A stretch of 64,000 nucleotides of DNA from Marine Group III euryarchaeote CG-Epi1 (GTDB lineage: Archaea; Thermoplasmatota; Poseidoniia; MGIII; CG-Epi1), in assembly GCA_001875345.1 (NCBI GenBank), contig MIZA01000020.1:1-64000 (forward strand), given 5' to 3'. A program made the position numbers and the translations under genes. The notes below the pieces were generated by a model. It worked only from the letters and a program-made list of their open reading frames with translations, was not told the origin of the DNA and ran no database searches. Shown here in pieces: positions 32,841-61,762 of this stretch. The first letter of the stretch is position 1; each line of letters opens with the position of its first letter.

Positions 32841-35210
32841 TTAATTGACTTTAAGAACTTTAAAAGTTGTTGGACCTACTTTTACTTCATCGCCTTCCTT
32901 TGAACCCTCGAGTGATTTACCTATAGGGTTTGATAAAGGAATTTTTCCTTGCGGAATATTTGCATCTTCTTGGTTAACTAATTCAAATGTGTGCTCTGTT
33001 TCCTTTGTCAAATTCTTGACTGTAAGGCTAGTTCCTATGGAAGCTCCTGTTGATGAAGACGATTCTGTTGCTACAGGTTTATTCAAACTTTCAATACGAG
33101 CATCCTTAATTTTTTCTTCCAACTCTTTATTGCTGTCTGAAAGACTTTGAGCTTCTGCATTCATTTCATCGGCCATTTCTTTTTCTTTAGGTATTTCAAT
33201 TTCCATTGCTTTGATCTTTCGCTCGGTATCCTCTTCGCTACCTATAGTTGTTCCCTGAAGAAATTCTAGATCTTCTTTCAACTTTTCATGCTCTGTCTTC
33301 TCAGCTTCAAGTAACCTTTCAGCCTTGTTTCTATCATCAATACTGATATTTAGTTCTGCTTTAGCATCCTCGAATTGCTTCTTGAGTGTTTGCATAACTT
33401 TACTAACTTGCTGTGAAGCATTTTCTAAGGCTGCTAAATCTTTCTGAGTTTTTTCCTTACTCTTAACTTCGATCTTTAATTCGTCGTCAATTTTCTTGTT
33501 GGATTCCTTTTGATTATCAACCTGCTCTTGCAATTCCTTGAGTGAATCAGTCATACCAAGTATTTCATTTTCTTTTTGCCTAAATTGTTCACTACTTTGC
33601 TCGAGTTCAATTATTGTTTGCCTTTCAATATCTAATTCATTCATAGTTAATGATGCCTTTTCTCTTGCGTCATTAAGCTCTTTTTTCGCCTTTTCCAAAT
33701 TTGTAGTCAATGTCGTAAATTTATCATTTATTCTTTTCTTATTCTTTTCCATTAGTTTGACCTCTCTATCCAATTCTTTTCTTCTGTTAATAGCCTCGTT
33801 TCTTTCCGCAAGGGCAGATTTTTCCCTTTCATTAGCTTCTAAGGTATGCTGTTCCAATTCCATAATCTCTTTTTCTAAATTATTCTTTTCCTGAACAGTT
33901 TTATCGTATGAAGCTTTAACAGAATCATAAGACTCTAAAGCATTAACTGTATCTGGCTTCTCTAACTTCAGTTTCCTCTCAGCGTCAACTGCTTTAGTTT
34001 CGGCATCGTCACTCATCGTCCTTAGAGAACCTATTTCTCTTGTCATTCTATCACTAAGACGCATATCGTTTTCGTGTTTAGCTCTCAAATCTTCAATTTC
34101 TTTTTCAAGATTATTCTTTGCGGAAAGATCGTCTAACAACTCCTTTTCAGCCATTCTAGCTCTCTTCTCAACTTCTGATGTTGCGACTCTTGCAGTTTTC
34201 AATTTGGATTCTAGGGAACTATTTAGTGTATTGACACTCTGATTAAGGGCCGTAATACGATCTAATTCGTTTTCTAAGTCATCAATTCCGTCATAATCTA
34301 TGTCGTTAGTTGAAGCTCGAACGTCTTCGATTCTTTTCTCAGCCTCTTTCAACCTTTCTTCGGTATCTTCAAATTCTTGCATTAGTTCCTTGCTTTTTTC
34401 TAACTCTCCGTCATGGATCTTTTGCTGCCTTTCAATTAATTCCTGCTTTTTCAAAATCGCTTGCCATTCTTCATCGATATTCCCTAATATGTAGAGTGTT
34501 CCTCCTCCAGTAAGAGCAGTACCTATCAAAACAATAAAAAAACCTATTCCTGGACTCCATGAAACAGGCCCTAATCTTCCAGTGATTCTATCTGCTTCAC
34601 CTGCTTGTAACTGAACATATTCCTCACAATTTCCCTCACCGTAAAAAGTCAACAAATTTTTGATACACCCCAGTTCTTTATTCGAATCAGAACCTTCTGT
34701 ATTTGTTGATGAAAGTGCAACTTCATCTTGTATTAATGCATCTGACCAAGTAGTGTAAAACAAGAATGTAGACAAAAACCCTACTATGAGGACAATAATT
34801 GCAAAATATTTCAAATTTTTAAGCGCACTTCGCAAAGTATTCTGATGAAGACTACTCACTGCATTATTTGCCATGTAGGCAACAACCAAAGCCAGAAGAC
34901 CAGCTGCGTACGCTGTCATTTTTGCATTATTGGCTGAATCAACTTTATTTAGACAATAAACGCAATCTTGACTCTCATAGGTAACTGAGTTACTATTTCC
35001 TGTGGTATCGGTCAACAAATATGAATCTAAATAATAATGATATTGGAATGTATTATATTGAGTGACATTTCCAGTTTCTGGGTCTACTGTTTCTCTTGCT
35101 CCGTCAACTACAAACCATTTCCCGTAATCTCCAGTACTATTAACGGAAATTAGAATACAAAGAAATGTAACAACTGCTACCGCTTGTATTTGTTGTAATT
35201 GCTCTTTCAT
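32841..35210 (-). CDS. membrane protein: about 4 TM helices, long coiled coil, C-terminal GreA/GreB-like domain
   Basis: hydrophobic segments in the N-terminal about 250 aa; about 450 aa heptad-rich charged region; C-terminus TSLTVKNLTKETEHTFELVNQEDANIPQGKIPLSNPIGKSLEGSKEGDEVKV matches the GreA/B C-domain pattern. Confidence 0.8.
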   Translation of the reverse strand: MKEQLQQIQAVAVVTFLCILISVNSTGDYGKWFVVDGARETVDPETGNVTQYNTFQYHYYLDSYLLTDTTGNSNSVTYESQDCVYCLNKVDSANNAKMTAYAAGLLALVVAYMANNAVSSLHQNTLRSALKNLKYFAIIVLIVGFLSTFLFYTTWSDALIQDEVALSSTNTEGSDSNKELGCIKNLLTFYGEGNCEEYVQLQAGEADRITGRLGPVSWSPGIGFFIVLIGTALTGGGTLYILGNIDEEWQAILKKQELIERQQKIHDGELEKSKELMQEFEDTEERLKEAEKRIEDVRASTNDIDYDGIDDLENELDRITALNQSVNTLNSSLESKLKTARVATSEVEKRARMAEKELLDDLSAKNNLEKEIEDLRAKHENDMRLSDRMTREIGSLRTMSDDAETKAVDAERKLKLEKPDTVNALESYDSVKASYDKTVQEKNNLEKEIMELEQHTLEANEREKSALAERNEAINRRKELDREVKLMEKNKKRINDKFTTLTTNLEKAKKELNDAREKASLTMNELDIERQTIIELEQSSEQFRQKENEILGMTDSLKELQEQVDNQKESNKKIDDELKIEVKSKEKTQKDLAALENASQQVSKVMQTLKKQFEDAKAELNISIDDRNKAERLLEAEKTEHEKLKEDLEFLQGTTIGSEEDTERKIKAMEIEIPKEKEMADEMNAEAQSLSDSNKELEEKIKDARIESLNKPVATESSSSTGASIGTSLTVKNLTKETEHTFELVNQEDANIPQGKIPLSNPIGKSLEGSKEGDEVKVGPTTFKVLKVN

Positions 35211-35317
35211 AGAGTTGATTTTACCAGACCTTCTATTTAAAGTTTTTGATTTTTACTGAGTACGATTATGAACAAAACTATGAGATAACATTTTAATGGA
35301 GTAGTCTGTGAACGGCT

Positions 35318-38300
35318 ATGAAGGTCTGCCCAGTATGTGAAATGGAAGAGGAGGATAGTGCTCTTACATGTAGCATGTGTGGATCTGATTTTGAACCCTC
35401 TGTTAAAGAGGCTCCACCACAAGACTCTCCAGCTGATGTTCCTAACGATCTTTCTTCAGATATAGCTGAGATGAATCTAGACGAGGTAGAAAATACTGAA
35501 CCTGACTCAGAAGAGATAAGTGAATTAAGTGAAGAAGAAAAATTATTGGAAGAGACTCTAAGTGCTACTGAAACTGAAGCTTCAGAGGAAAAATCTGAAA
35601 GCAGTTTCACCAAATTTACTGAACAGTTCTCAGACATGGGAAAAATATTTGGCGACTTAAACAAAAGACTTGATGGAATATTCCTATCAAAAGGAGAATT
35701 GAATTACATTGCACCTTTAACTATAGTTGTAATTTCTATTTTATTACTTTCAGGAGTAATTGGATTAGCTGTATCTAGTGTACCTGGAACGGATCAAGAA
35801 TCTTCAGATGGATACAAACCTACTACACCCTACAATAAGGAAATAAATGGAATTACTGTACTAATTGGAAGAGGAGTTGCAGAACCTTTCTCAGGAGAAC
35901 CATTCAACTGTGAAATTTGGGATAGTCAAGTATATGAAGAATTTCAAGAAGTTAATGATGAAGGGTATTATATTCAATTAACTGACCGTAACGAAAATGG
36001 TACTGTCGATGATGAAGAAAGATACGGTTGTCCAGTCAACATGAAATTTATTAGTACTTTTTCGTTTATTATTCTTAATCTTCTTCTTTTAACTACTGCA
36101 TTTTATATCTACAATAAAGTTTCAAACACTGCAATAATCATACCAGTTATAGGTTTCGCGGTTGTTGAAACTATCTTATTTGCAATATACGGTGGATTGT
36201 TGAATAAAGTTATTTTTGCATTGCCTCTAACTATTGGCCTTGTTTGTACTGTAGGATTAATTGTAGCTTCTGGTGTTTTACTAATAAGAACTTCTCTAGG
36301 GCGTTCACTGAATGATCCACCTAGTCTTACATTCTACATATTCATCATAGCTGCTGCATTATTGTTTTCCTCTGTATTCTATAATTACTCACTTGGCCCT
36401 TATGCAATTTGTGACGGAGAATATACTCCATCAGAGCTTCTAGATTTAAAAAATAATGTCCCAGAAGATTTAAGGACAGAATGTCAAAATAAAGGTTATA
36501 AGAATTTACAAGCCGTACCTTTTGACTTAGGAAATGGAAGTAACATGATACTACTGTTATCTGCGACGTTCCTCTTCATAGGAGTTGCTAATTCGCTGAT
36601 TTCCAATACTAAGATTAACGACATTGATGAAGCAAAATACTTCTCTATGATTCTCTCCGGTCTTGGTTTACAATTTCTCATACTAGTTTTCAATGTAGTA
36701 ACTAGTGAAGATGGAGGCCTAGGATTTGACGAGAATGATACTGCACTAACTATCATGGCTCTTGGAGTAGCAACCATTGGAATGGTTTCATTTTATCGTA
36801 AAAGAAGAGGTGAAGCTGGATCTATGGGTGTCGCCTATTTCGTAATTTTTGCATCCGGAATTTTCGCTCTTTTCGGAACATTTATTGCCCCAGTAGTTCT
36901 TGGTGGTAATGATATTGAATGGCCAGAGGACGGGGATGAGCAATTTAATCTCGTCTTATCTGCTTTAGTAACTGCCGTAGGTTTCTGGCTAAGCTATAGA
37001 TTTGGATCTCAAAAACTACGTGAACTTTCAATCGCTAGTGATGCAGCAATGCCTAATCGTCAGGATGCTTTTGCGCCATCAGTTCCGGGTGAACAAAAGG
37101 CAATGCCCGAATGGACCGTTGACTCGGCTATGGAATTTTTGATGAACGAGTATGGTGATGAATTCCAAGTTGAACTCAAACACACTACAGAACATACACC
37201 CGATCTAGAATTAGTTGAAAAAACAATGATGGATACTGTAGATCAATCTGTTGAAATCAGACAAGCAATCGAAGTTGACTACGATGTGGATTTCCATGAA
37301 ATAGCTGAAGCATACTCTACTACGCAAGAAACTGTTGATGAAGTAATAACTCATTTAACTTCTGGTAAGAACATTATGCTTTTCGGAGAACCTGGAACTG
37401 GTAAAACTGCATTATCAAACATATTATTAACAAAATTATGTGGTGAAATTGAACAACCAAATGGTAGCATGGCTCCAAACTATACTATTGTTACAGCAAA
37501 TGCAGAATGGTCAAATTTCGATGTTATTGGTGGTATCTCTCCTGATGATTCTGGAGGGTACTACTTCAAGGATGGATATGTAGCTGAGGCTGCAAAATTA
37601 TGTGAAAAATCGATTCGTGAAAGAGGTAAACCTCACTATCTTGTTATTGATGAGTTTAACCGAGCTAATATTGATGAAGCGTTTGGTAAATTGTTTACAG
37701 TTTTTGAGTATCGAGATAAGCAACCTTTACTAACGCACAAAGAAACTGGAGGCGCTCCATTCATGATGCCGCCAGAATTCCGTATTATAGGAACTATGAA
37801 TACTCAGGATAAAAATACATTATTCAACGTTGGTTTTGCTCTAATGCGACGTTTTGCTTTTGTTGAAATTGGATTACCACTTCCTGAGGATGAATACCAC
37901 CGTATGCCTGTTTTTGTTTATTTTAAGCTCAAAAAACTTGGACTAGTTCCGGACAGGCCTGATGGCGATGGCTTGTGGAAATTTGGAGAAAAATGCCGCC
38001 ATTTTCCACAAAAGAAATTTGACTTCTACGACGAAGATGGAAATATGTACGCTTGTCACGAAAAACTGGTTAAATTCTTAACTCCTGGCGAAACCCCTAA
38101 GCGTGGTGACGAAACGCCTCTTGGAGTACGCACATTTAGGAAAATTGGACCTGCATTACTTATCGATTCAATGGTAACTATATTTAATTCGATTAAGAAG
38201 TATGGGCCAGAATTAGCCTTGGACAGAGTCATTAGATCCAACATAATGCCTTCACTTGAAGGTTTAGAAAGAAATGAAATAAGATGCATGTTCCTACATG

Positions 38301-38383
38301 CGAAGGAAGTGCTTGGCCCTACCTCAATAGTTACTGAAACTCTAGATAGAATGGCTAATTCAGACAGTCTAAGTTTATTCTAG
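35318..38383 (+). CDS. zinc-ribbon, multi-TM, C-terminal McrB/MoxR-like AAA+ ATPase fusion protein
   Basis: CPVCEMEEEDSALTCSMC; about 10 hydrophobic segments; GEPGTGKTA, LVIDEFNRANIDEAFGKLF, GTMNTQDKNTLFNVGFALMRRFAFVEI. Confidence 0.88.
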   Translation: MKVCPVCEMEEEDSALTCSMCGSDFEPSVKEAPPQDSPADVPNDLSSDIAEMNLDEVENTEPDSEEISELSEEEKLLEETLSATETEASEEKSESSFTKFTEQFSDMGKIFGDLNKRLDGIFLSKGELNYIAPLTIVVISILLLSGVIGLAVSSVPGTDQESSDGYKPTTPYNKEINGITVLIGRGVAEPFSGEPFNCEIWDSQVYEEFQEVNDEGYYIQLTDRNENGTVDDEERYGCPVNMKFISTFSFIILNLLLLTTAFYIYNKVSNTAIIIPVIGFAVVETILFAIYGGLLNKVIFALPLTIGLVCTVGLIVASGVLLIRTSLGRSLNDPPSLTFYIFIIAAALLFSSVFYNYSLGPYAICDGEYTPSELLDLKNNVPEDLRTECQNKGYKNLQAVPFDLGNGSNMILLLSATFLFIGVANSLISNTKINDIDEAKYFSMILSGLGLQFLILVFNVVTSEDGGLGFDENDTALTIMALGVATIGMVSFYRKRRGEAGSMGVAYFVIFASGIFALFGTFIAPVVLGGNDIEWPEDGDEQFNLVLSALVTAVGFWLSYRFGSQKLRELSIASDAAMPNRQDAFAPSVPGEQKAMPEWTVDSAMEFLMNEYGDEFQVELKHTTEHTPDLELVEKTMMDTVDQSVEIRQAIEVDYDVDFHEIAEAYSTTQETVDEVITHLTSGKNIMLFGEPGTGKTALSNILLTKLCGEIEQPNGSMAPNYTIVTANAEWSNFDVIGGISPDDSGGYYFKDGYVAEAAKLCEKSIRERGKPHYLVIDEFNRANIDEAFGKLFTVFEYRDKQPLLTHKETGGAPFMMPPEFRIIGTMNTQDKNTLFNVGFALMRRFAFVEIGLPLPEDEYHRMPVFVYFKLKKLGLVPDRPDGDGLWKFGEKCRHFPQKKFDFYDEDGNMYACHEKLVKFLTPGETPKRGDETPLGVRTFRKIGPALLIDSMVTIFNSIKKYGPELALDRVIRSNIMPSLEGLERNEIRCMFLHAKEVLGPTSIVTETLDRMANSDSLSLF

Positions 38384-51004: not shown

Positions 51005-54000
51005 ATGTACATGATTCGAGACGTGAAATGGAAAAAAAACTTTGTTGTTTTGGCGATTTTAGCCTTAGCAATTACATTTTACATGCCAACTTCTGAGGCT
51101 CAGGAAGACCCTTATATTGAAAATGTCATATACTCTAAAGGGTCAGAGGAGAGCTCCACAATAGTTCTAAGTGGGAGAGATAATGCTACATTTTACAAAT
51201 ATTTGATTTTAGATGACTATTCACAAGCACCCACAAACTGGTTTGAATCTGACTTTAATGATTCTTCATGGAGTTTTGGTGCAGCTCCTTTCGGCGATAG
51301 ATCAGTCAGTGGGGTTGAACCAAATTTAATTTGGAATACTCAGGGAAATTCTCCTTATGAAGATGATGTCATATTAGTCCGTCATAAATTCCAATTGAGT
51401 GGAATCGTAACATCTGCACAAATTGATGTGGCTTTTGCAAACTACTGTACACCATATCTAAACGGAAACATAATCTATGAAGAAAGAGGAGACAATAACC
51501 ATGCACAAGAATACTGGAATGACGATGGAACTGAAGAAATAAGTGCGTCATCCTTTGAAATGGGCCAAAACGTATTAGCTGTTTATGCCAGAGACACCGG
51601 GCAAGGTACTTGGGGAAATAACAATAGACAATGGGTTGATCTTCAAATAACTGCCAGTGTCTTCCAACCTACTAATGATTCAATTATCTTTGGCGATACT
51701 GTTACTGTTGCCGTGAAAGGAGGAAATAAAGGCAATGTAAGCGCAGAAGAAGTAATCATTGAATCTTTCACTAATGAAAGCACTGTCAGTTCCACAATAT
51801 TGTCTACAACGGAGCCTAATTTTGAAGATTTAATTTTCTTCACGTGGACTCCAAGTTATATTGGTGAAAATAGTCTCAATTTATATATTTCGTGCAACTG
51901 CAGTGACGGAAATTCATCAAATAATAATTTAACTCTGAATATTACAACAAAAATTTACCGGCTAAAAACTGAGATTGAAAATAATTTACAATATGTAAAT
52001 CAAAGTCGAAATTTAGTGAAAATAATTAGTATCACAAACAATGGTGGATTAACAGACAATGTTACTCTAATTCCATCTAATGGAGAAATTAATTCTCAAC
52101 TAACATTTAGCCCTAACAATTTCATTCTTAATCCTGGAGAATCGAAGAACGTTACCATAAGTGCACAATTGCCGTTATCAATTGAAGATGGTTTTCATAA
52201 TATTTCATTTCAAGTAAAGACTCAGCACGATTATACAATAAGCGAATACCTAGTTAATAACGGAATAAATACTGAAGTTGCCTGGAAATGGATAGAATCC
52301 GATGGCTATGAAGAATTGTATGGTAATGCCAACTGGACTACTCTTGGATTTAATGATACCAATTGGTCAAATGCTAGTACACCTTTTGGAGATAGTTCTG
52401 TTGACGGAGTGAATTACAGAACTTTATGGGATGAAGATAATTACGCCTACTTTAGGTATATTTTGAACATAAGTGATATTGGAATTTATAAAAATGGCAT
52501 AATGAACATTAATGTTGCCAGCAACAATTTCGGCGACCACTACATCAATGGAATATTTGTTTTCGGGGACATGGATGAAGGTAATGGGCATGGTGCAGAG
52601 TACTGGAATGATGAAGTACAAGTTTTCACTAATTATCTTTCGGAGGGGGATAATGTAATTGCAAGTGTAATTGGAAATCCGCAAAATTCACAGTGGTTTG
52701 ACCAAGAAATAATAGTTACATTTCCGCAAGCTAACCTATGGAATTACGAAGATGCTACATACAACGTACCAATATTCGTAGATACAACTGCACCTACAAC
52801 TAAAGTAAATGAAAATGGATTCTACAAAAATTCAACAAGTATACCTTTAACGTGGAAAGAAATATCTGATGATGGTGATCTCGAAGGATTTTACTTGTAC
52901 TATCAAATGAAAGATGGAAGTGCATTAGGAGATTGGATGCTTTACGGTTATTACGATACAATATTCGCTACGAATTTTTCAGCAGAAAATGGAAAGATTT
53001 ATCGATTTAGAACCATAGGTATCGACGTTTACGGAAATAAAGAAATAAAGGGAACGTATGATACAGAAGTTAAAATTGATATGGATCTACCTAGATCAGA
53101 ACTTTGGCTAAGCGAAGGAGACATTCAATACACAAACCTAGATGGAGTAACGATTAATTGGAAAGAAAATGAAACTTCAGACATTCAAGGATATCTAATA
53201 GAATATAAAAAAATAGATGAGACTTCTTGGGAAAACTATGGGCTATTTACAGGAATAGGTGAATATTGGTTCGAGCCTGAATCTGATGGAACATACCAAA
53301 TCAGGTCTAGGAGTATTGACTATTCGGGTAATAAAGAGGTCAAAGCAGTTCCAGACATAACTATAACGTTTGATAGAATGAAGCCTTTAGTAAGCTTAAA
53401 TCAGATTAATATTTTAAGAGATACAGGAGATTTAACACTATCAATAAAAGAAAGGTCCGAAAATTTATCTTCACTGGATATTGAGTTTGCCAGACTAGAC
53501 GAGAATAACGAAGATATCTTAGAATGGAAGTCGTTCGACGAGGAATGGTTGAATGAGGAGTTCATAATCAGAAATCTTGTTGACGGTTATACTTATTATT
53601 TTAGAATAAACCCTGAAGATTACGCCGGAAACAATTACCCTAGAGAGGAATTTGAGTTTATATTCAATTATGAAGATAATAGTACGAAAGAAATTTTACT
53701 TCCAACTATACCCCTCAAACCTGTAATGACTGGTAAGATAAAAAATGTTGAAATTACTGTAGACGAAAATTCAAACGGAATCTACGATAAGATTCTCCAA
53801 GAATACAATGGTAATGATTTATCTGGAATGAAAGCAAATCAATATTGGATTGATTATGAAGAAGGTAAACTAGTATTTGGAAATGGGGATGTTGGCTACC
53901 TACCACCTGTAAACTCATCTATATCTATAACTTACTCAGGTTATGACTTGGTGACTACGATCGATAACAATCCTCCAATGGCTGTTCAAAACGTAGAATA

Positions 54001-54637
54001 CCAAATCGACAACGAAAATAATCTGACTATTGAGTGGAATGAACCAGATGATGCAGTTTCTTACATAATTGAGAGTAGAGACAATTTCTCGAGACCATGG
54101 GAAATATTAGAGAATATTAACTACACAAAAAATAAGATGGTTTATGAGATTTCCAATCTCAGTGGAGGATTTCATTATTACAGAATTATTTCTGTCGATC
54201 GAATGGGGTATCAGAATGCTGACATGGAAGGCGAATTACTTGAAATATTTATCGAATTTGAAAACATTAACAGTGCTACAAGTGATGGCAGTAGTTCTAC
54301 AGTAATTAACAATTACATAATTGCTACAAGTCTTCTAGTTTTAACTGCTATTGCCTCAGCTGCTTATGCTTTCAGAAATAAAAAAGAAGAAGTTGCAATT
54401 GATGTAAATAATTCAAATATTCTTGTTCCTGTTGAATTACTAAATGAAGAACAAATTAATTCTGCTGAAGAGGATAAACCTACCTTTAGTGTTGTTCAAG
54501 GAAGCCAGTTTTCGCGTACGACTGTTTTTGTGTGCGTTGGGGGATGTCAAAGTGAATTTGAAAATGTGAACGACGGCGAAGATGGAAATGAAATTATGTG
54601 CCCGCATTGTGGATTAATCGGAGATTCACCACTTTAG
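51005..54637 (+). CDS. large surface protein with duplicated beta-sandwich modules, CARDB/FN3-like repeats, C-terminal TM and zinc ribbon
   Basis: N-terminal hydrophobic signal; two related NW...FND(S/T)(S/N)W...PFGD..V.GV modules; C-terminal TM then CVGGCQSEF...IMCPHCGL. Confidence 0.82.
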   Translation: MYMIRDVKWKKNFVVLAILALAITFYMPTSEAQEDPYIENVIYSKGSEESSTIVLSGRDNATFYKYLILDDYSQAPTNWFESDFNDSSWSFGAAPFGDRSVSGVEPNLIWNTQGNSPYEDDVILVRHKFQLSGIVTSAQIDVAFANYCTPYLNGNIIYEERGDNNHAQEYWNDDGTEEISASSFEMGQNVLAVYARDTGQGTWGNNNRQWVDLQITASVFQPTNDSIIFGDTVTVAVKGGNKGNVSAEEVIIESFTNESTVSSTILSTTEPNFEDLIFFTWTPSYIGENSLNLYISCNCSDGNSSNNNLTLNITTKIYRLKTEIENNLQYVNQSRNLVKIISITNNGGLTDNVTLIPSNGEINSQLTFSPNNFILNPGESKNVTISAQLPLSIEDGFHNISFQVKTQHDYTISEYLVNNGINTEVAWKWIESDGYEELYGNANWTTLGFNDTNWSNASTPFGDSSVDGVNYRTLWDEDNYAYFRYILNISDIGIYKNGIMNINVASNNFGDHYINGIFVFGDMDEGNGHGAEYWNDEVQVFTNYLSEGDNVIASVIGNPQNSQWFDQEIIVTFPQANLWNYEDATYNVPIFVDTTAPTTKVNENGFYKNSTSIPLTWKEISDDGDLEGFYLYYQMKDGSALGDWMLYGYYDTIFATNFSAENGKIYRFRTIGIDVYGNKEIKGTYDTEVKIDMDLPRSELWLSEGDIQYTNLDGVTINWKENETSDIQGYLIEYKKIDETSWENYGLFTGIGEYWFEPESDGTYQIRSRSIDYSGNKEVKAVPDITITFDRMKPLVSLNQINILRDTGDLTLSIKERSENLSSLDIEFARLDENNEDILEWKSFDEEWLNEEFIIRNLVDGYTYYFRINPEDYAGNNYPREEFEFIFNYEDNSTKEILLPTIPLKPVMTGKIKNVEITVDENSNGIYDKILQEYNGNDLSGMKANQYWIDYEEGKLVFGNGDVGYLPPVNSSISITYSGYDLVTTIDNNPPMAVQNVEYQIDNENNLTIEWNEPDDAVSYIIESRDNFSRPWEILENINYTKNKMVYEISNLSGGFHYYRIISVDRMGYQNADMEGELLEIFIEFENINSATSDGSSSTVINNYIIATSLLVLTAIASAAYAFRNKKEEVAIDVNNSNILVPVELLNEEQINSAEEDKPTFSVVQGSQFSRTTVFVCVGGCQSEFENVNDGEDGNEIMCPHCGLIGDSPL

Positions 54638-58294: not shown

Positions 58295-61200
58295 GTGAGT
58301 GCAAGATATTTATCGGTAATCGGATTATTATTTTTAGCCATACTGGCAGTTAACTCAGCAAGTGCAGCTCCTACAAGCGGAAACATAAGCGTAGCTTTCA
58401 TAATGGCTGGATTTGAAGATCAAGATTTTCAGGAAGAATATGATCAGGATTATTTTGAAGACACCGCATTTGCAAACACTAATTCAATGTGGGATTATTT
58501 TGATGAAGTTTCTAAAGGTGCTCTAAATATTGAAGGTAATGTTTATGGCCCATATACTCTGGACGGAGACGCTGCTGATTATTCTAGCGGTTCTAGCTTT
58601 GTTAGAGATAGTGTGGAGATTGCTGATGATGATATTTATTATCCTGATTATGATGCAGTAGTAGCAATACACTCTGGCCCAGGAGGAGAATCATCTGGAA
58701 ACAGTAATGACATTTGGTCAGCGCATTGGCCGACTTTAACAATTAGTACTGATGACGAAGATGAAAACGGTAATGATCACTTTGTAGACGGAATAAGTCA
58801 AGTTCCAGAATATCAGTTATCAAATGGAGAAAAAAATCCCCTAGGAGTTTGGTGCCATGAATTTGGTCATGAACTAGGCCTGCCAGATTACTATGACACT
58901 GACGGAAGTTCAGAGGGCGTGGGTAATTGGGCTGTGATGGCAGCTGGATCTTGGGGAAACAATGGTGAAACACCTGTGTACTTTAGTGCCTATTCACGAT
59001 ATTGGTTGGGTTGGGATGAGCCTATACTTGTTCAAGGCGATATTGCTAATCTTGTCATCGAACCGGTTTCAGAAGGCGGTAAAATTTACAAACTGCCAAT
59101 ACCAGGTAACTGGACAGACTCAGAACAATATTTCTTACTAGAAAATAGGCAGCAAACAAAATATGATACATATTTACCAGGTGAGGGACTTTTAATCTGG
59201 CACATTGACGAAGAAGTAATGTTTTCCAAATGGAGCTCAAATACTGTTAACAACGATGAAGATCATAAGGGAATGGATCTAGAGGAAGCAGATGGTGATG
59301 ATGATTTGGACTCGGGAGCAAATAGAGGAGACAGCGGTGACCCTTACAGGTCCGGATCATTTACTAAAGATACATATCCTAATTCTCTAGCATACAATGG
59401 ATCTGAATCCGGTTGGAAAATAGATAATATAGAAGTAGATGGTGATAATATTGTTGTAGATATTAGTTTTCTATCAAAACCACATGCCATTGCAGACGCT
59501 GATGAGGCTGTAGTAGCCGAGGGGGAGGCCTTACAATTCTATGGAAATGAGTCATGGGATGAAGACGGTCAGATAGTAAATTATACTTGGAATTTTGGAG
59601 ATGGTAAATACAACTATACTGACAACCCAGTTCACATATTTACTGAAAACGGTGAATACAATGTAACACTAACTGTTAGAGATAATAATGGACTTGAGGA
59701 TACATACATACTCAACATATTTGTTAACAAACCACCTGTTGCTAGTATCAGCATTTCAAAAACAGTAATTATGCTTGGTGAAAGTATAACATTTGATGCC
59801 TCTAATTCATATGATTTAGATGGTGAAATTGATTTTTATTATTGGAATTTTGACGACGGAAGAACCTCCAACCAAATCATGAAAGAACATACTTACAGTG
59901 ATTCAGGCATATTCAATGTATCTTTGAAATTAATAGATAATCTGAATGATATTAGCACTACATATTACACAATTGAAGTTATTAATTCATTGCCCGAAAT
60001 ATCCTTTGATGTAAATCCGAATGATGGTAACACACTAACATTGTTTGAATTCATTGATTCATCTACTGACGCTGATGGAGAAATCGAAGAATGGCTTTGG
60101 TTATTTGGCGATGGAAATACATCAAATGAAGTCAGTCCTAGCCATTATTATTCATTTCCTGGATACTACAATGTAACACTAACCTTGACTGATGACCAAA
60201 ATGGAGTAAACTCATCAACTATCATAATTTTTGTTAATAATTCACCACCAAATCCAGATATAGTTATTGAGGAAGGAATTATATCAGGAGAAAATCAATG
60301 GATAATTCCTACAAATAGAGAAGTACGTATTGATGGTGGTGTATCATTAGATAACGACAATACAGTACTTACATATCAGTGGCAGTATGACTCAGCAACT
60401 TACTATGGACAACATTTAGATCTTTTGTTTGTAGAAGGTGAACATAACATAGAATTAACTGTAAGTGATCCAAGGGGAGCAAACACAACTGAAACGTTTA
60501 TTTTGACTGGAACAAATTTACCTATCCTTAACTTAAATTATGAAGAAATCAATCTTGTTGTTAACCAAGATGCTGAAATAATCACATCTACTTTCGGGGA
60601 AGTAAATCTTTACGAATGGAAAATATACCAAGTCAGTTCATCTAATCTGATCTTACTTTCTGACGAAGTAAATGTGAACTTATCCAAAACTATCAAATTT
60701 AATGAACGCGGAGATTACAAGCTAATTGCTAGTGCCAGAGATTCAGAAAGTAATTTGTGGACAAATGATATTGAACTAGATGTAACTGTGTACGACAAAC
60801 CAACTTCTTACTTTGAGTTTGACAGTGACATTAACGAAGATACGTGGATTGGCTTCAATGGCAGTAAGTCTACTGGATTAGGCTTGAATTATGTATGGAA
60901 ACTGGATGGAAATATTTTAGATAGCAATAATGCTATAATTTCAACATTTATCGACTCTGGAGGGTATCATGTTATGAACCTAACAGTTGAACAAGAGCCA
61001 GTGGGCATTGCATATTATGAATCTGAAATCTATCTTAACTCAAAACCAACCGGAGTTTTGCAAACCAGTCCTACAACTCCTCGAGTTGGAGAAGACTTTG
61101 AAATTTATTTAAATGCATTCGACGTCGAAACTGATGCCAATATTGAATATCTTAAAATTAAAATAATAGATAATAAAGATAATGAAAGAGCTGAATTTGA

Positions 61201-61762
61201 ATACATTAATCAAGGTGCTAACTTCAATTTAATATTTGAAGTTGAATACGCTGGAGAGATTATCTTAGAATATTCTTTAATTGATGAAAGTGGGAATAAA
61301 AATGAAAGTATAAATTCTGTTAACGTCATAGGCTGGGCTGATATATTCATTAGCGACATCAAGATAAGTGGCTCAAAAGAGAAGGGAGCGAAACATCAAA
61401 TTGAAACTATTTTAACTAATTACAATGAGACGTACAATAGTACAAACTACAACGGATATACTGCTACAGGTTACTACGAACTTTTCATAGACTCTGAACT
61501 AGTACACACCTCCTCATTCAGTATAGAGCCTGAGAGTAGCGAGAGTTTCAAGTTCGAGTGGACAGCTACAGGCAATTACCATGAGTTTAATGTCAAAGCT
61601 TATGTTAATGACGGTGAAATTAATAAAGAAAACAATGAGTATACTAAGGAGCAAGTTTTCGAATCTGAAAGAAAGAGTGGATTCTTACCAAGCTTATCAT
61701 TATTATCCTGTATTGTTGTCATGTGCATTATTGTTTCATTCAACCGTAGCAAACCTAATTAA
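58295..61762 (+). CDS. secreted M6-family metalloprotease with PKD domains and C-terminal TM (GTG start)
   Basis: signal peptide; zinc motif HEFGHELGLPDYYD; repeated PKD units (NYTWNFGDGKYN...YNVTLTVRDN); terminal hydrophobic segment. Confidence 0.93.
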   Translation: MSARYLSVIGLLFLAILAVNSASAAPTSGNISVAFIMAGFEDQDFQEEYDQDYFEDTAFANTNSMWDYFDEVSKGALNIEGNVYGPYTLDGDAADYSSGSSFVRDSVEIADDDIYYPDYDAVVAIHSGPGGESSGNSNDIWSAHWPTLTISTDDEDENGNDHFVDGISQVPEYQLSNGEKNPLGVWCHEFGHELGLPDYYDTDGSSEGVGNWAVMAAGSWGNNGETPVYFSAYSRYWLGWDEPILVQGDIANLVIEPVSEGGKIYKLPIPGNWTDSEQYFLLENRQQTKYDTYLPGEGLLIWHIDEEVMFSKWSSNTVNNDEDHKGMDLEEADGDDDLDSGANRGDSGDPYRSGSFTKDTYPNSLAYNGSESGWKIDNIEVDGDNIVVDISFLSKPHAIADADEAVVAEGEALQFYGNESWDEDGQIVNYTWNFGDGKYNYTDNPVHIFTENGEYNVTLTVRDNNGLEDTYILNIFVNKPPVASISISKTVIMLGESITFDASNSYDLDGEIDFYYWNFDDGRTSNQIMKEHTYSDSGIFNVSLKLIDNLNDISTTYYTIEVINSLPEISFDVNPNDGNTLTLFEFIDSSTDADGEIEEWLWLFGDGNTSNEVSPSHYYSFPGYYNVTLTLTDDQNGVNSSTIIIFVNNSPPNPDIVIEEGIISGENQWIIPTNREVRIDGGVSLDNDNTVLTYQWQYDSATYYGQHLDLLFVEGEHNIELTVSDPRGANTTETFILTGTNLPILNLNYEEINLVVNQDAEIITSTFGEVNLYEWKIYQVSSSNLILLSDEVNVNLSKTIKFNERGDYKLIASARDSESNLWTNDIELDVTVYDKPTSYFEFDSDINEDTWIGFNGSKSTGLGLNYVWKLDGNILDSNNAIISTFIDSGGYHVMNLTVEQEPVGIAYYESEIYLNSKPTGVLQTSPTTPRVGEDFEIYLNAFDVETDANIEYLKIKIIDNKDNERAEFEYINQGANFNLIFEVEYAGEIILEYSLIDESGNKNESINSVNVIGWADIFISDIKISGSKEKGAKHQIETILTNYNETYNSTNYNGYTATGYYELFIDSELVHTSSFSIEPESSESFKFEWTATGNYHEFNVKAYVNDGEINKENNEYTKEQVFESERKSGFLPSLSLLSCIVVMCIIVSFNRSKPN

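Follow-up and report, generated by a model that had tools for sequence, protein, structure and literature searches.

A membrane-anchored coiled-coil protein of Marine Group III archaea ends in a GreA/GreB C-terminal domain and is co-inherited with an McrB-like AAA+ gene

We describe a protein from a Marine Group III archaeon (Poseidoniia) in which a four-helix membrane domain and a long coiled-coil rod are joined to a C-terminal domain of the GreA/GreB type (Gre_C), and whose gene is paired with a gene for a membrane-embedded McrB-like AAA+ protein. The gene lies at 32841-35210 on the minus strand of the window (the whole 64,000-nucleotide stretch that was analysed); its open reading frame starts with ATG, encodes 789 amino acids and was delimited using Pfam and orthologues. 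On the reading we prefer, to which we assign a probability of about 0.4, the protein would be a tether in the membrane, docking on RNA polymerase (RNAP) through its Gre_C tip and worked by the membrane AAA+ partner. The domains are known ones; their architecture and partnership had not been seen before.

The Gre_C domain spans residues 723-789 (32844-33044, minus strand), as placed by profile and fold comparisons. In a Pfam scan, residues 723-788 matched PF01272 with E=1.5e-10 and 41.4 bits (gathering cut-off, 26.9 bits), and the last 63 amino acids alone matched it with E=3.3e-11. E. coli GreA (1grj) was retrieved both by phmmer (E=7e-5) and by a profile search (2.9e-8), and a profile-profile comparison with bacterial GreA/GreB, represented by ten diverse bacterial sequences, yielded 98% probability, E=2.6e-14 and 33% identity over 69 columns. 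The AlphaFold2 (AF2) model of the domain (pLDDT about 90) has the FKBP-like fold and superimposes on 1grj at 1.3 Å, with a TM-score of 0.80 (query-normalised, TMq); its next structural matches include Gfh1, Rnk and GreB. The initial annotation, made from the sequence by eye, had proposed a Gre_C end for this protein, and both the Pfam score and the predicted fold bear this out. That the C terminus is a true GreA/GreB C-terminal domain is therefore firmly supported.

The N-terminal half of a Gre factor is a different matter. The Gre_N hairpin (PF03449) had no match anywhere in the host genome (87% complete), the 111 amino acids upstream of Gre_C gave no alignment with Gre_N, and the protein holds no counterpart of the GDLSENAEY stretch with its acidic tip pair, D41 and E44. 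The same genome encodes a TFS-type protein of 104 amino acids with an ADE acidic stretch, as expected from the earlier remark that archaea normally use TFS for this role. Given the absence of Gre_N and the presence of an ordinary TFS, we regard the protein as a Gre_C protein and not as a Gre cleavage factor. We did consider a complete Gre factor at the C terminus, as NCBIfam GreA models reach into residues 638-722 and the stretch EKLKEDLEFLQ resembles the start of Gre_N; this was ruled out, since those 111 amino acids on their own gave no Gre match and hhalign aligned only 13 residues.

At the other end of the protein, residues 1-245 (34476-35210, minus strand) make up a four-TM domain with a predicted claudin-like fold, delineated by TM scan, AF2, Foldseek and paralogue alignment. 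The four hydrophobic segments that had been noticed in the first third of the protein were recovered by the TM scan at residues 5-23, 96-114, 133-151 and 224-242. In the full-length AF2 model, TM1 is followed by a beta-stranded loop, TM2, TM3, a second beta-stranded loop and TM4, which runs directly into the rod; four TM helices with beta strands from loops 1 and 2, as in a claudin-like fold, are thus present in the model, at moderate confidence. In Foldseek, with E about 1e-4 and TMt up to 0.57, the membrane domain matched claudins, AMPA-receptor TARPs and DUOXA1; separately, the C terminus of the full-length model matched GreA/Gfh1. Claudin-clan Pfam models had no match in eight members of the four-TM domain, and we accordingly claim only a resemblance of fold. 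Four cysteines (Cys83, Cys86, Cys182 and Cys195), two in each predicted outside loop, are invariant. The even number of TM segments, together with the cysteine pairs in loops 1 and 2, suggests that both termini of the membrane domain lie inside, which would place the rod and Gre_C in the cytoplasm.

The paralogue alignment also brought out four-TM proteins of the same genus in which the four cysteines are likewise invariant and a DxDxDG calcium-binding-type repeat takes the place of the rod. In two of these (L016:979-2250 and L015:997-2112), found in the same genus only, the repeat stands before the claudin-like domain, and an ALxxDE motif is shared along with the four cysteines; their genes follow one for a metallopeptidase-like membrane protein and a small gene with a CxxC. 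The sister genus (genome G017, contig 2, L106:6272-7042) encodes a distant four-TM protein that stands alone and shows a similar pattern of W / C.C / PG; its gene adjoins a peptide ABC transporter operon.

Residues 246-709 (33084-34475, minus strand) form the predicted cytoplasmic coiled-coil rod, defined by a heptad test, AF2 helices and conservation. Heptad periodicity was assessed over residues 223-709, where the best period was 3.50 with a power of 0.98 (0.31 +/- 0.06 in 300 shuffles); at 487 amino acids, this stretch is slightly longer than the roughly 450 residues of heptad-like sequence first estimated. Were the rod one continuous helix, its length would be about 72 nm (487 x 0.1485 nm), a figure that is only an upper limit because AF2 predicts helix breaks at about 302-306, 416-422, 621-629 and 652-675. 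Conservation, taken as mean pairwise identity among divergent orthologues, was 0.47 and 0.56 in the outside loops and 0.65-0.86 in the rod. It was 0.22 in the linker that joins the rod to Gre_C (residues 710-722; 33045-33083, minus strand; placed by conservation and by an AF2 pLDDT below 50), versus 0.82 in Gre_C itself, which is among the best-conserved parts of the protein. Between residues 307 and 520 of the rod, core positions reached 0.90-0.96 and non-core positions 0.80-0.86. A plain spacer would not need conserved non-core positions, and we infer that the rod surface probably binds something. The anchor and coiled coil of the initial annotation are thus both present, although that description was less specific than a claudin-like fold and a rod with a conserved surface.

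Ten genomes of the genus, including the window's own, yielded full-length orthologues whose parts stand in the same order (64-100% identity), further ones being truncated at contig ends; the domain arrangement is therefore neither a chance event nor an assembly artefact. The Gre_C protein was present in 12 of the genus's 14 genomes, and the two without it are 54% and 60% complete. Source records of the orthologues name a marine group III euryarchaeote or Candidatus Poseidoniia, and the window itself carries archaeal genes (FttA, aIF2-gamma and a thermosome subunit). Among 392 genomes of the phylum, PF01272 was found in this genus only, and a separate search of the family's genomes added G017, in which only the Gre_C end was found, at a contig edge and in the same gene order. 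The PF01272 cut-off was also passed in nine other family genomes, and four archaeal control genomes from outside the phylum were not among the nine controls with PF01272. The GC-rich G017 contig was examined as a possible contaminant or chimera; this was rejected, as the contig shares its gene order with the window (class I tRNA synthetase, DUF309, thioesterase-like and M3 peptidase genes), which marks its gene as a real sister-genus orthologue truncated at the contig end. Within the phylum sample, Gre_C was thus found to be confined to one small lineage. Elsewhere in the window, two large genes lie on the plus strand: one encodes a probably secreted 1155-amino-acid protein that combines an M6 (immune inhibitor A-like) peptidase domain with three PKD stretches (58295-61762), the other a 1210-amino-acid protein with a weak fn3 match only (51005-54637).

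The AAA+ partner gene (35318-38383, plus strand; ORF, Pfam and TM scan) is divergent from the Gre_C gene and back to back with it, across a spacer of 107 bp. The initial annotation had left the strand unstated and overlooked both this opposite-strand gene and the gene unit. An alignment of nine loci revealed two conserved TATA-like elements in the spacer, which may serve as promoters: TTTAAATAG, about 23 nt before the start codon of the Gre_C gene (35233-35241, minus strand), and TTTTAAT, upstream of the AAA+ gene (35291-35297, plus strand). The partner, 1021 amino acids long, has a zinc-ribbon-like N terminus (CPVC/CSMC), about ten TM segments (nine above threshold and one just below it, by eye) and an AAA_5 / McrB-like domain at residues 685-846 (37370-37855, plus strand), identified by Pfam, nearest structure and motifs. 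The solved structure nearest to this domain is E. coli McrB (6hz4, E=6.9e-20), and Walker A (GEPGTGKT), Walker B (LVIDEF) and an N-T-Q-D signature are all present, as is characteristic of McrB-like AAA+ domains. The signature corresponds to the NxxD of canonical McrB, unlike the NxD of CoCoNuTs (PMC11090510). A match to PRK11331 (E=1.1e-18) fell under the equivalog cut-off. In some species (L019, L020, L022 and L023) the membrane part of the partner is strongly divergent, at about 40-44% identity, with the AAA+ domain near 90%; some Gre_C-linked AAA+ proteins are 1158 amino acids long.

The locus is syntenic across the whole genus (about 62-97% identity), the pair being flanked by genes for a peroxiredoxin (AhpC/TSA), an Asn-synthase-like protein, Elp3 and an M3 peptidase. 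When 21 genomes of the family were compared, both genes were present in 13, neither in eight, and one alone in none. In one genome lacking the pair (G019), the Elp3 - M3 peptidase block is intact, with only a PAP2-like gene between, and two other genomes (G014 and G015) likewise have no Gre_C upstream of the M3 peptidase. This both-or-neither distribution, together with the G019 site, indicates that the pair was gained or lost as a unit, which in turn makes it most likely that the two proteins act together. Physical contact between them would fit this pattern, although co-inheritance of adjacent genes is no proof of contact and the independent gains and losses are few. The PAP2-like gene is common to the G019 empty site and the G017 locus, where it lies with a 2-oxoglutarate/isopenicillin-N-synthase-like gene between Gre_C and the M3 peptidase (contig 100, L030:4106-5726).

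Marine Group III genomes carry two AAA+ paralogues. The Gre_C-linked copies form one clade with the second G017 copy (support 100/99; the G017 branch is long), and the second paralogue stands directly upstream of a gene for a protein of 692-697 amino acids (L102:7825-12697 on contig 8 of G000; L103:6243-10966). That protein has a beta-rich-looking N-terminal stretch and a C-terminal PEI...FYFETKY that, by eye, is like an McrC-type PD-(D/E)XK nuclease. It had no Pfam, PADLOC or PDB match, the by-eye stretch being the only feature that would make it a candidate McrC. The second paralogue and its neighbor may possibly constitute a membrane-bound McrBC-like system conserved across Marine Group III.

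In the mechanism we favor, the claudin-like four-TM domain would serve as the membrane anchor, the rod with its conserved surface would extend into the cytoplasm, and the flexible linker would present Gre_C at the rod tip. This tip would most likely sit on the rim helices of the nucleotide-entry funnel of RNAP, as GreA, Gfh1 and Rnk do, and, once docked, would keep transcription complexes at or near the membrane. The 10-TM McrB-like AAA+ protein would be a dedicated partner that probably remodels, releases or loads the rod's cargo. The protein does not cleave transcripts, lacking as it does the N-terminal hairpin that bears the two acidic residues in Gre factors. RNAP as the target is an uncertain element of this mechanism. 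Rim helices do exist in archaeal RNAP, where TFS4 contacts them (PMC8448823), and the RpoA-prime of relatives contains the corresponding stretch. We also considered an adaptation of the rim helices to Gre_C and rejected it, for a comparison of RpoA-prime between Gre_C-bearing and Gre_C-lacking genomes disclosed no change specific to the bearers.

The residues of Gre_C itself give a warning, and docking on RNAP is uncertain on this account. Two positions nearly invariant in the GreA set are altered in this genus, E. coli GreA S121 to Pro and S124 to Asn, and the TPxG loop is missing altogether. The S121P change in E. coli GreA renders RNAP binding defective or reduced, and S124L keeps binding but abolishes antipause activity (PMC7527559). 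The sister-genus G017 still has Ser at the S121 position; the change to Pro therefore probably took place within the genus. Such alterations at positions important for RNAP binding (PMC7527559) lend weight to a rival reading, in which a Gre_C of bacterial derivation now docks a protein that is not RNAP, in the simplest case the neighboring AAA+ protein or else another cytoplasmic protein, with the rod as scaffold or stimulator of the AAA+ ring. The inheritance of the Gre_C gene with an AAA+ gene fits this reading, as does the second AAA+ paralogue beside a different protein, which would allow the two AAA+ copies to have separate partners; known McrB-type rings are, moreover, stimulated by McrC (PMC11090510). 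Yet the core of Gre_C (VxNL, PIxxxL, GD-V) is well preserved, its predicted fold is unaltered, and characterised relatives with this fold bind RNAP; we rate this rival close behind the RNAP tether, at less than even odds.

Two further readings are improbable. The locus might encode a membrane defence module, with Gre_C sensing transcription complexes and the McrB-like AAA+ protein setting off a response, as the domain occurs with TPR and PIN domains in a proposed conflict system that is bacterial and sporadically archaeal (PMC8195603), and the AAA+ domain is closest to McrB, a restriction GTPase. However, no effector domain, whether nuclease, TIR, PIN or another, was found in either protein, the locus is syntenic and fixed genus-wide whereas defence loci are patchy, and PADLOC matches were limited to coiled-coil and generic AAA; weak matches to LmuB (PADLOC) and SMC (NCBIfam) were dismissed as coiled-coil cross-matches. 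The protein might otherwise be structural, a rod or spacer running from membrane to chromosome in the envelope or nucleoid, with Gre_C as a stable end cap only. The length of the rod and its conserved mid-rod surface would suit such a role, but a mere cap has no need of so conserved a Gre_C behind a fast-evolving, flexible linker, and we rate this reading as the most improbable.

Returning to the RNAP tether, its most explicit form, in which archaeal RNAP is held at the membrane by a rod-borne Gre_C gripping the funnel rim and an McrB-type AAA+ ring that loads or releases it, strikes us as doubtful. If true, it would be a physical link between membrane and transcription for which we found no earlier description in archaea. 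Binding of RNAP by Gre_C would make the protein a dedicated transcription tether at the membrane and would mean that a docking domain from bacteria has been adapted to the archaeal enzyme; if Gre_C binds something else, it would exemplify a fold recruited for another partner. The predicted claudin-like fold in archaea is of interest by itself. The literature we covered, which is part of the whole, describes neither a membrane-anchored Gre_C protein nor an archaeal claudin-like fold.

Among known systems, GreA and GreB share with the archaeal protein a C-terminal FKBP-like Gre_C (about 33% identical, same predicted fold), but the latter lacks the Gre_N hairpin and acidic tip, has S121 and S124 changed and the TPxG loop lost, adds 700 residues that make up the membrane domain and rod, and occurs in a host with TFS. 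Rnk and Gfh1 likewise have a Gre_C that is free of cleavage function, and in Rnk Gre_C and a short coil suffice for RNAP binding; both are small, soluble bacterial proteins with neither a membrane part nor an AAA+ partner. The claudin/TARP/DUOXA1 fold is matched in the predicted four-TM bundle and its outside-loop beta strands, but without above-threshold sequence similarity, and the cysteine pattern differs, loop 1 here having a CxxC and loop 2 a second cysteine pair; we take the likeness as one of fold, without implying common descent. Beyond transcription factors, the closest use of Gre_C in the literature we covered is in the TPR/Gre_C/PIN conflict system, which is reported to be sporadic in archaea (PMC8195603). 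Its EAD10/TPR/GreA-B-C/PIN proteins also embed Gre_C within a large multidomain protein (PMC8195603); unlike them, the archaeal protein is membrane anchored, syntenic and conserved, and a Pfam scan found neither TPR nor PIN beside its Gre_C. McrBC and CoCoNuT systems similarly combine an McrB-like AAA+ with long coiled coils (PMC11090510), but here the rod belongs to a separate membrane protein that carries Gre_C, the AAA+ protein has about 10 TM and, unlike in CoCoNuTs, the NxxD-type AAA+ gene adjoins no McrC-type gene. Finally, ShdA of the Shield system resembles the archaeal protein in joining a membrane helix, a long coiled coil and a globular domain (PMC11090510), but it is bacterial (Pseudomonas), and its globular domain is an RmuC-like nuclease instead of Gre_C.
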